Below are positions 52,341-56,267 of a stretch of 64,000 nt of DNA, piece after piece (positions within the stretch are counted from its first letter, which is position 1; the number at the start of each line of letters is the position of its first letter). This stretch comes from Petrachloros mirabilis ULC683 (GTDB lineage Bacteria; Cyanobacteriota; Cyanobacteriia; Thermosynechococcales; Thermosynechococcaceae). The notes below the pieces were generated by a model that made no database searches, was not told the DNA's origin, and saw only the letters and a list, made by a program, of their open reading frames with translations. The position numbers and the translations under genes are program-made. Location: positions 1 through 64,000 of the forward strand of contig NZ_WVIC01000002.1 in NCBI RefSeq assembly GCF_009939295.1. Reading direction: 5' to 3'.

Positions 52341-53246
52341 CTAACGCTTTCTCCCAAACAGTTCTCTAGCCTCCTGCCAGAGCGGAGAAACCGCTGCCAA
52401 GCTGGTGGGATGCGTCAGCACCCCCTGGCTCGGACTCAGCAAAAAAGCAATCATGAATAGCCCAAAGGACACCAGGACAATGGCAGGCCCAGAGGGAAGA
52501 TTGACATAATAGCTGAGATACAAGCCCGTAACGCTAGCAATCACCCCCAGGATGGCTCCAAAAGTCATCATCTGATGTAGGCGCGTCACCAACAGATAGG
52601 CCGTTGCACCGGGGGTAATCAGCATCGCCAGGACTAAAATCACCCCCACCGCTTTGAGACTGGCCACAATGGTGAGGGCAATCAAAATCATCAGACCCAG
52701 ATTCAGCAGATGTACCGGCAGTCCGGCGGCTTGGGCACCGATGGGGTCAAAAGTGTAAAACATTAGCTCTTTGTAGAGCAGGGCAATCACGAGCAACACC
52801 AACACCGTAATGATCAAGGTGTTGCGGACTTCACTGGGGGTAACGCTGAGAATATTGCCAAATAGAAAATGATTCAGGTCGATTTTGTTCTCTTTCTGAA
52901 TCACCGTAATCAAGGTAATTCCCAGGGCAAAGAAGGCCGAGAAGACAATGCCCATAGCAGCATCTTCTTTAATCTGAGACTGGGTACGAATCCAGGTGAT
53001 CAAAATGGTGCTTAAAACCCCGGCAATAAAGGCACCCAGAAAAATGTCAGCTCCGAGCCAAAAAGCAATGGCTAACCCTGGCAGCACCGAGTGACTGATG
53101 GCATCGCCCAGCAAGGCCAACCGCTGCACCATCAAGTAGCTACCTACGACAGCACAGAGGATGCCAACTAACACGGCGGTCAGCAGTGAACGCTGCATAA
53201 AGCTAAATTGCAGCGGCTCCCAAAGAATTTCTAGCAGTTGACTCAT
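52341..53246 (-). CDS. mntB: Manganese/zinc-type ABC transporter permease
   Basis: 301 residues, about eight membrane segments, ABC-3 family. The coupling helix region LLALIGDA appears as LALLGDAISHSVLPGLAIAF. The family also shows FYTFDPIGAQAAGLPV and VGVILVLAMLITPGATAYLL. It follows the ATPase by 6 bp on the same strand. Metal (Mn versus Zn) cannot be distinguished from the permease; the operator and binding protein support Mn. The last residues (ELFGRKR) are a short basic tail. Confidence 0.9.
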   Translation of the reverse strand: MSQLLEILWEPLQFSFMQRSLLTAVLVGILCAVVGSYLMVQRLALLGDAISHSVLPGLAIAFWLGADIFLGAFIAGVLSTILITWIRTQSQIKEDAAMGIVFSAFFALGITLITVIQKENKIDLNHFLFGNILSVTPSEVRNTLIITVLVLLVIALLYKELMFYTFDPIGAQAAGLPVHLLNLGLMILIALTIVASLKAVGVILVLAMLITPGATAYLLVTRLHQMMTFGAILGVIASVTGLYLSYYVNLPSGPAIVLVSFGLFMIAFLLSPSQGVLTHPTSLAAVSPLWQEARELFGRKR

Positions 53247-53252
53247 GGGGAA

Positions 53253-53987
53253 CTAGGCAGCGGCTTCACCGGGAAATAAGACCACCTGCCCCCCAAAGGC
53301 ACGTTGCAGATTTTGGGGCGTGAGCACTTCAGCTCGGGGACCAGAGGCGATCAGTTCCCGGTTGAGCAGAATCAGATCATCAAAGTGGGTCATGGCCTGC
53401 CCCAAGTCGTGATGCACCACTGCCACTAGGTGTCCAGCCTGAGTGAGTTCGCGCAAAATTTGAAACACAACGGCTTCGGTTTTTTTGTCAATGCCAGCCA
53501 GGGGTTCATCCAGAAAAAAGACCTCGGCTTCTTCGCTCAGCGCTCGGGCCAGGAAGACCCGCTGCTGCTGCCCCCCTGACAGTTGCCCAATGGGGCGATC
53601 GCGGTAGGCCATCATCTCTACGCGCTCTAGAGCCGCCATGGCTGAGCGTCGAGCTACGGTGGAATGCCGTCGCAACCAGCCCGTTTTACGTACCCGACCC
53701 ATGAGCACCACATCCCAAACCGTGGCTGGATAGGTCCAGTCCACCTGGGAGCGCTGGGGCACGTAGGCGACGCGATCGCGCTGCAACAACTCGCCACCAT
53801 AGGTCACCCGTCCGTGACTGGGGATCACCAACCCCAGTAGGGCTTTGATTAAGGTACTTTTTCCGGCCCCATTGGGACCTAGAATCCCGGTCAGCCGCCC
53901 TGGGGCAAGGGTGCAAGACACCTGACTCAGGGCTTCAACCCGGCGATATTGGACGCTTAGAGACTCGATATGGAGGGCAGAGGCCAT
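53253..53987 (-). CDS. mntA: Manganese/zinc-type ABC transporter ATPase
   Basis: 244 residues. Walker A GPNGAGKSTLIKALLG, Q-loop YVPQRSQVDWTYP, signature LSGGQQQRVFLARAL, Walker B EVFFLDEPLAGID, and H-loop VAVVHHD. It partners mntB (6-bp gap). ATG 53987 is used rather than a TTG two codons upstream. It is divergent from mntC, with a 75-bp shared region holding four phased repeats. Confidence 0.93.
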   Translation of the reverse strand: MASALHIESLSVQYRRVEALSQVSCTLAPGRLTGILGPNGAGKSTLIKALLGLVIPSHGRVTYGGELLQRDRVAYVPQRSQVDWTYPATVWDVVLMGRVRKTGWLRRHSTVARRSAMAALERVEMMAYRDRPIGQLSGGQQQRVFLARALSEEAEVFFLDEPLAGIDKKTEAVVFQILRELTQAGHLVAVVHHDLGQAMTHFDDLILLNRELIASGPRAEVLTPQNLQRAFGGQVVLFPGEAAA

Positions 53988-53997
53988 GGGCAAAGAT

Positions 53998-54059
53998 TAT
54001 GAAACAACTATGAAAATAGTGTAGCTTAAAAATGAAGGGAATATGAAAGGAATATGAAA
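53998..54059. promoter_or_regulatory. Phased TATGAAA direct repeats between mntA and mntC
   Basis: TATGAAA occurs at 53998, 54009, 54042 and 54053. The spacings are 11, 33 and 11 bp, so all copies lie on one face of the helix. A half-conserved fifth copy (AATGAAG) is in phase at 54031. Eleven-bp direct repeats are typical of OmpR/PhoB-type response regulators; in Synechocystis the mnt operon is controlled by such a regulator (ManR). The site overlaps in-frame ATG codons before mntC. Confidence 0.6.
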
Positions 54060-54062
54060 GGG

Positions 54063-55028
54063 ATGAACAAACAACCGGGATGGGAACCAAGTCTCCGCAG
54101 ATGGGGGTGGGGGTTACTCGGGATCGGTGCGATCGCCCTCAGCAGTTGCACCAACACCTCACCTCTCAGCGATGACCCAGACCGCCCCCTAAAAGTGGTC
54201 ACCACCAGTACCATTCTCCAGGACTGGGCTGACACAGTGGCTGGGGACAGCTTAGAAGTGGTAGGAATTTTGCAACCCGGCGTAGACCCCCATGTCTATG
54301 AACCCGTACCCGCCGACTTACAGAAGCTAGAGCAAGCCGATCTAGTGTTTTACAACGGCCATAACCTGGAGCCGGGCTTGATTCGCATGATCCAGGCATC
54401 TGTTCCCGAAGACCAAGCCTTTGCCGTGGGCGAAGTGATTCCCCCCCTAGACTTGGAAAAAGCAGGAGAAACAGTGCCGGATCCCCATGTGTGGGGAGAT
54501 GTCGGCAATGCCAGGGTGATGGTCACCGCCATGCGCGATCGCCTGATTGAGCTCTCTCCAGATCACCGGCAGGTCTTTACCACCAATGCCGCCGACTATC
54601 AACAAATTTTGGCGACCCTAGATGAGTGGGTCCGCGATCAGATGCAAACGCTGCCGCCCCAACGCCGCTATTTGGTCACCACCCACGATGCATTTCAATA
54701 CTATGGTCGAGCCTACGGTCTTACCATTGCGGGAACCTTGATTGGCATCAGCACCGAAGAGCAGCCCAGCGCCCGCACTGTGGGCACACTCGCCCAGCGG
54801 ATCCGAGAGGTAGCGGTACCCACCATCTTTGCCGAGACCACCATTAACCCCGCGCTAATTCAGACCGTAGCCCAAGAAGCGGGCGTTGAGGTGGCCACTC
54901 AACCGCTCTACTCCGATTCTCTAGGGGCACCAGGCAGCCAAGCCGACACCTATGTGGATATGCAGGTGATCAATACCCAAACCATTGTGGAAGGGTTAGG
55001 GGGTTCGCTCAGCCCCTTTCAAAAATAG
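54063..55028 (+). CDS. mntC: Manganese/zinc-type ABC transporter substrate-binding lipoprotein
   Basis: 321 residues. Lipobox ALSSC follows a hydrophobic segment. The cluster A-I metal site appears as DPHVYEP (His), DPHVWGD (His), FAETTIN (Glu) and YSDSLG (Asp), a 2-His/acidic set. There is no His-rich loop, which favours Mn over Zn. The start is taken as ATG 54063, downstream of the phased repeats; ATG 54054 would lie inside the last repeat. In Synechocystis mntC-A-B form one operon; here mntC is divergent from mntA-mntB. Confidence 0.92.
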   Translation: MNKQPGWEPSLRRWGWGLLGIGAIALSSCTNTSPLSDDPDRPLKVVTTSTILQDWADTVAGDSLEVVGILQPGVDPHVYEPVPADLQKLEQADLVFYNGHNLEPGLIRMIQASVPEDQAFAVGEVIPPLDLEKAGETVPDPHVWGDVGNARVMVTAMRDRLIELSPDHRQVFTTNAADYQQILATLDEWVRDQMQTLPPQRRYLVTTHDAFQYYGRAYGLTIAGTLIGISTEEQPSARTVGTLAQRIREVAVPTIFAETTINPALIQTVAQEAGVEVATQPLYSDSLGAPGSQADTYVDMQVINTQTIVEGLGGSLSPFQK

Positions 55029-55199
55029 TTGATGATCCTTCGGGAAACTCCATGCTTGGCCTAGTTGCCCGCGTCTTTGGTTGGATCAAACTCGATCTCC
55101 ATGATTTATTGGAGTCACAGTAAATCAGTCTGTCAAGCCACCGCTCCGCCGTGAAACCCAACATACTTTAGAATGCCGGCAGTGCAACACATCAAAGCT

Positions 55200-56267
55200 A
55201 TGCAACTGATTTGGCATTGTTGGATCACTCCGATCCTTTTCCTCAGTGCAGTTATTTCCTTCGGGGGCACCTATGCGAGTTTGGCAGTTGCCGACATCAC
55301 CCCCCCAGCCGTTTCTCCCCCCAGGGAAACGCTTCGAGTCCGACGCCCAATCCCCCTCGAAGCCAATCTGCAAGCTATTGTGCATTTGCAAGATTTTGCG
55401 GTGGATCCCCCGCAAACCTTTGGGAGTGGGCGCTTGCCCCTGGTTCCTTTTGGCGATACGGGAGTCCATGTCCTCAGGGGCACTTTTGGCAATCAACCCC
55501 AGTGGTTTCTGCTGGATACTGGGGCTTCTACCTCTTTGCTGTCCGATGCGATTACCCAGACCCTTCCCGGATCTGGCCAGGTGATTTCGCCGCAGCAACT
55601 AGGGTTTGCCGTGGCCGGAGAAGACTGCCCTGATATGAGCGCCACCCTTCACCAAGTTCCAGACTTGCAACTGGAAACCGTGCGAATTACCAACCTGTGG
55701 GGGCTTCAGTTTCAGCATGTGCAAATTCCCCAGGGCATCTCAGCAGTCTTGGGCATGGATGTTCTGCGGCAGTTTGATGTTCACATTCAGCCTGGGCAAA
55801 AGTCGCTGCGTTTGCTTCCCCCCACGATCTTGCCCGCCAACGTTGTGGCTGAGGCGATTCCTCTTAAAGAACGCCTCGGGGTTATGTTGACTAAGGTGCA
55901 ACTCAATGGTCAAGGACCCTTTACGATGCTTCTAGATACGGGGGCAGGCAGCACATTTATTTCTGAGGGGGTGGCGCAGCAGTTGCGTCTTCAGTCCGAC
56001 ACCCTGGAGCCTATCCATATCCAAGGATTTTGTGGGCTAGAAACGGCGATGCGATCGCGCCTCACCTCCCTCAAGCTCCAACAGCACGAGCAAACCAACC
56101 TAGAGACGATCATTCTGTCTTCCCCCATTCTGGAGATGCTGAATGTAGATGGCATTCTGGGGCAAAACTTTCTCAATGGCTATCGCCAATACTGGCGGTT
56201 TACGCCAGCCAACCTGCCTACGGGGAAGGTAGAGGGGAGCTTGTTGCTCTACCCAGAGTCCCCCTAG
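55200..56267 (+). CDS. Exported retropepsin-like aspartic protease with two DTG motifs
   Basis: 355 residues with a signal peptide ([20 protein letters not shown]...). Two retropepsin-like half-domains are visible: [17 protein letters not shown] (about residues 102-118) and [20 protein letters not shown] (about 240-259). The second is followed by [10 protein letters not shown], the paired flap/strand end. Two DTG in one chain suggests a pseudo-dimer, like pepsin. The start is ATG 55200, nine codons after an upstream ATG. The stop overlaps that of the convergent DUF445 gene (shared CTAG). Confidence 0.85.

Follow-up and report, generated by a model that had tools for sequence, protein, structure and literature searches.

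Photosystem II needs manganese to assemble its water-splitting centre, and the supply of the metal limits this step. The response regulator ManR, known since 2002, binds the promoter of the mntCAB operon in Synechocystis sp. PCC 6803 and represses its transcription (PMC7020235; PMC11649195), which bears out the statement, made in a sequence-only reading of the locus described here, that Synechocystis ManR controls mnt genes. In Anabaena PCC 7120, a UPF0016 gene is reported to be under the control of ManS/ManR (Huang and Wu 2004, cited in the review PMC7380456). ManR control of mntCAB, the regulator itself and the class of its operator are already known, and no published ManR box or motif was found in the open literature. 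Two described binding sites of cyanobacterial OmpR-class regulators are close enough for comparison. The CopR site is TTCATN4-5TTCAT, in which TTCAT is the reverse complement of ATGAA, and CopR-like repeats have been reported upstream of mntC of PCC 6803 without a function (Giner-Lamia et al., PMC4182526). The HLR1 site of RpaB (KTTACAWW-N2-KTTACAWW, PMC13421787) is likewise a tandem direct repeat, and mediates repression at promoters where it covers the start site; it differs from the repeats studied here in its half-site, its 10-bp period and its photosynthesis target genes.

The window, that is, the whole stretch of 64,000 nucleotides of Petrachloros mirabilis ULC683 that was analysed, carries a locus of the same target class as Synechocystis mntCAB, a cluster A-I ABC importer (Table 1), and the genome encodes a ManR orthologue. 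Synechocystis mntCAB forms one operon with a His2-Glu-Asp MntC, whereas the mntC and mntAB genes of the window are divergent, with the putative operator between them, and their MntC belongs to a different subfamily. The start codons of mntA (53985-53987, minus strand) and mntC (54054) are separated by a gap of 66 bp. Four exact copies of TATGAAA had been noticed there on the plus strand, at 53998, 54009, 54042 and 54053, and all four coordinates proved exact. A further copy at 54031, AATGAAG on the plus strand, had been called partial; it is present and in phase, but comparison with relatives identifies it as a normal half-site, belonging to the second pair. Half-sites of the form ATGARA therefore start at 53999, 54010, 54032, 54043 and 54054, in steps of 11, 22, 11 and 11 bp. 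Two like-oriented half-sites 11 bp apart have the tandem direct-repeat geometry of OmpR/PhoB-type regulators (10-11 bp, one helical turn). We consider it very probable that these repeats are two operator pairs recognised by ManR, a response regulator of the OmpR class, and that phosphorylated ManR (ManR-P) represses mntC.

Table 1. Features of the mntA-mntC region, in window coordinates.
Feature	Position	Strand	Remarks
mntB-like permease	52341..53246	-	
mntA-like ATP-binding protein, cluster A-I metal ABC importer	53253..53987	-	
Predicted operator pair 1, TATGAAACAACTATGAAAA	53998..54016	+	Half-sites 11 bp apart; matches phylum consensus ATGARAnnnWATGAAAA
-10-like element, TAGTGTAG	54017..54024	+	In relatives, conserved either between operator pairs or directly ahead of them; putative promoter role
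Predicted operator pair 2, AATGAAGGGAATATGAAAG	54031..54049	+	33 bp from pair 1; contains the copy earlier called partial
Fifth half-site, TATGAAA	54053..54059	+	Overlaps mntC start codon
mntC-like metal-binding lipoprotein	54054..55028	+	Ligands His-His-His-Asp (TroA/AztC-like)

Taken alone, the TATGAAA word is no commoner in the whole window than expected by chance (6 copies seen, 6.1 expected), so the signal lies in the spacing and clustering of the copies. Across the 4.12-Mb genome, the 18-bp form TATGAAAN4TATGAAA has two mismatch-free copies, both of them at this locus. Among 20,000 dinucleotide shuffles of the repeat stretch, none exceeded two TATGAAA copies or contained a second 11-bp pair. 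This genome-wide rarity, the shuffles and the conservation described below rule out chance or low complexity. No riboswitch, of the yybP-ykoY or any other Rfam family, was found in 53000-55200. A strict sigma-70 promoter scan of the locus gave no match, so the putative promoter was placed by conservation. The fourth exact copy, at 54053, overlaps both the mntC start codon and a Shine-Dalgarno-like AAAGGA, which means that it may be coding or translational; it may be an operator half-site, a start codon or both.

Comparative analyses were performed on 386 genomes sampled across the phylum, of which 83 contained window-type mntC orthologues, sharing about 50-62% identity in the aligned part. We compared 82 of these and set the remaining one aside because no adjoining mntA was seen; mntA is divergent from mntC in 70 of the 82. 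The sequence-only reading had proposed aligning the intergenic regions of relatives and had named loss of the repeats in relatives of like gene layout as its refutation. That outcome did not occur, as the 11-bp repeats are kept there: the ATGARA-N5-ATGARA pair (11-bp period) was found upstream of mntC in 74/82 orthologues, from 48/49 genera and 22/22 families. A stricter form of the pair was present in 70/82, against 0.24 in shuffles, and this count of 70 is specific to the period of 11, as periods of 8, 9, 10 and 12-15 gave 0-7. The consensus is AAAATGARAnAAWATGAAAA. About half of the promoters contain at least two pairs, most commonly spaced by 34, 33, 23 or 22 bp; the window fits this two-pair class, and its 33/34-bp type of spacing is common in relatives. 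The earlier suggestion that the four copies lie on one helical face holds in the main, since the prevailing spacings are 11, 22/23, 33/34 and 44/45 bp; a further class, with 38/49 bp, is out of phase. In several Nostocales-type loci (L031, L032, L042, L048 and others), there is a conserved third half-site, GATAAATGAAACTAATAC, which stands alone, 38 bp past the second half-site and thus on the other side of the helix. The counterpart of the -10-like element in relatives is TAsTgTAcc in two-pair promoters and TTACTATAAAA before single pairs. The pairs appear to straddle the promoter core and the start site, which is the position of a repressor.

Most of the site-less mntC orthologues belong to one Microcystis-like genus, in which mntC sits away from mntA. 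In this genus (g31; L061, L064, L078, L079 and L081-L083), mntC has moved from mntA and lost the pair, and hmx keeps it; seven Microcystis-like genomes combine the presence of ManR, no site at mntC and a retained hmx site. In other genera where mntC and mntA have parted, each half retains its own pair. Judged by this conservation, the repeats are a conserved operator that, marine picocyanobacteria apart, is found in nearly all families of cyanobacteria and is almost always located beside Mn importers.

Further copies of the site were located by a strict pattern search and by reading their surroundings, with Pfam assignments of the targets. At hmx1-hmx2 (UPF0016, Pfam GDT1) and at NRAMP-type mntH, the site lies upstream of the first codon at a distance of 25-50 bp; it also precedes Synechocystis-type mntCAB operons and detached mntAB operons. 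Among the named contigs, the pair was present in 28/31 cyanobacterial mntCAB promoters and in 0/45 from other bacteria; four MAGs labelled Akkermansia, likewise without the pair, were set aside from the latter count. The same 11-bp repeats lie upstream of PCC 6803-like mntC in Synechocystis salina and in genome G076, whose MntC proteins are close to the sequence of the PCC 6803 MntC structure. In the window's genome, hmx1 bears a variant of the site with TATAAT directly before the repeats, which was judged real by its context, and Mn control of hmx1 is therefore predicted there; no NRAMP gene was found in this genome. The site was not found at hmx1 of Synechocystis, whose transcript is reported to stay the same under excess Mn, in contrast to that of mntCAB, which falls (PMC11649195).

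These observations make it likely that a single ManR operator persisted through most of the cyanobacterial phylum as the transporters under it were exchanged, one 11-bp ATGARA pair being located at Mn transporters of four unrelated types (two ABC subfamilies, NRAMP and UPF0016), with a half-site code shared with the paralogues CopR and NrsR. If this is true, Synechocystis, the source of most knowledge, would have a reduced regulon from which hmx has escaped. The sequence of the site and the phylum-wide list of its targets were not found published in the open literature. A defined site with a target list would make the Mn-limitation regulon readable from genome sequence, would offer an explanation for the CopR-like repeats upstream of Synechocystis mntC, and lets one predict that Mn controls hmx and mntH in most non-marine cyanobacteria.

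Two other targets were observed. In two unrelated genomes, G123 (L222) and G145 (L148), the pair precedes the gene for a short protein that resembles multicopper oxidases, has a twin-arginine-like start and may be a Mn-related oxidase of the periplasm. In another genome, G305 (L267), the pair is located 84 bp before an MntP-type manganese efflux gene; the other targets are importers.

ManR of Synechocystis was picked among the OmpR-type regulators by its Cys pattern, C64/C152/C228 compared with the published C64/C154/C230 (PMC4361706). The ManR orthologue encoded in the window's genome, at C16:81942-82655, is its reciprocal best match (54-56% identity, the next 42-46%). ManR is single-copy in 125 genomes of the 386 sampled, and it is present in 83/83 genomes with window-type mntC, including all 74 that bear the site. 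The strict motif was found 189 times in ManR-positive Cyanobacteriia, against 43 for the reversed control, and 5 times against 7 in ManR-negative ones, which are mostly one family (marine picocyanobacteria), so that this part of the association is not independent. The operator is common to orthologues of the proven ManR targets, mntCAB and the Anabaena UPF0016 gene, the orthologues compared being those of species other than the two strains themselves; UPF0016 (hmx) genes bear it in many related genomes. Autoregulation of manR was not indicated: 22 loci were checked upstream of manR, and none contained the site.

A CopR/NrsR-type OmpR regulator, sensing copper or nickel, might read the operator in place of ManR. 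The recognition-helix motif SNVxAAxxRLLRRK is common to ManR, CopR and NrsR, repeats of the CopR type are reported upstream of PCC 6803 mntC, and a CopR/NrsR paralogue is encoded in the window's genome, at C23:82846-83526, with TTTCATCTTTATTTCATA upstream of its own operon. This reading is nonetheless very unlikely. The period of CopR sites is reported as 9-10 bp, compared with 11 bp at the ATGARA pairs, the targets of these pairs are Mn transporters, and Synechocystis mntC is unresponsive to copper or to the loss of copR (PMC4182526). CopR/NrsR also does not co-occur with the operator: at the threshold used, an orthologue is missing in 26/74 site-bearing genomes, and the marine genomes that have CopR/NrsR and mntC but lack ManR have no site at mntC (0/7; 0/9 for the marine genomes tested overall). 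This double dissociation favours ManR, although it is no proof, because the ManR-negative genomes are mostly one clade. The same clade structure would suit another regulator that tracks the same genomes and reads the site, the presence of ManR being a coincidence of shared ancestry, and the link between ManR and the site is a predicted one. We regard this as improbable, since the two ManR-target families from earlier work, mntCAB and UPF0016, both bear the site, the geometry is that of the tandem repeats of OmpR-class regulators, and no site-bearing mntC genome is without ManR.

A local artefact, in which A-rich DNA with a Shine-Dalgarno sequence and a start codon (AAAGGAATATGAAA) was multiplied by slippage, would account for the overlap of the last copy with the mntC start codon, and a look-alike pair on contig C17 of the same genome is indeed a ribosome-binding site with a start codon. 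Its likelihood is close to negligible given the fixed 11-bp period, for which the shuffles expect 0.24, and pairs that are conserved far upstream of start codons and before genes with other starts. For pairs 1 and 2, conservation refutes a slippage or translational artefact, which could hold for 54053 only. We also weighed whether the importer carries zinc and the site serves zinc control. The ligands His-His-His-Asp, which are those of TroA and AztC, were found in 83/83 orthologues of the window mntC, and the window MntC does not have the His, His, Glu, Asp set of Synechocystis-type MntC. Its best NCBIfam score is for AztC, under the cut-off (248 < 350); the cut-offs of the AztABC zinc importer are also missed for AztA (191 < 220) and AztB (219 < 280), as is the equivalog cut-off for MntC. 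Zinc control is quite unlikely, however, as the operator is common to Mn transporters of three other families and the Zn importers of cyanobacteria are assigned to Zur/FurB (review PMC13421787). A paralogue on contig 15 of the window's genome (L104) has a Fur/Zur-like box, ATGATATTCAT, and no 11-bp ATGAAA pair, and the related locus L105 likewise has Fur/Zur-like boxes instead. The presumed Mn specificity of the window importer rests on the operator that it has in common with Mn transporters and not on homology; the importer may be regulated by Mn and yet have a zinc-like site, or it may carry both metals. The sequence-only reading, which had proposed one ManR-type operator switching a divergent Mn importer, stands as regards the operator, which is conserved, occurs at other Mn importers and tracks ManR rather than its nearest paralogue; the joint switching of both genes and the transport of Mn by the importer are predictions.

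With ManR as the regulator, each pair of two ATGARA half-sites 11 bp apart would bind one tandem ManR dimer. When Mn is plentiful, ManS would phosphorylate ManR, by analogy with Synechocystis, and ManR-P would occupy the pairs, covering the promoter core and the start region and turning mntC off. ManR-P would probably also switch off mntA-mntB, since the gap is so short. When Mn is scarce, ManR would leave and both sides would be transcribed. The binding of ManR, the repression and the coordinate control of both genes are predictions from sequence comparison.

At the CopR/NrsR-like operon of the window's genome, TTTCATCTTTATTTCATA is located just upstream (L006 1501-1518; C23:84103) and represents the same half-site in the opposite direction, which suggests a half-site code common to metal-sensing OmpR regulators. 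The contig 15 locus (L104 4600-4830) is a second divergent metal ABC importer, with an MntC 35-47% identical. Downstream of mntC, an open reading frame at 55173-56267 of the window contains two retropepsin-like motifs, FLLDTGAS and MLLDTGAG, and apparently encodes a duplicated aspartyl-protease-like domain.
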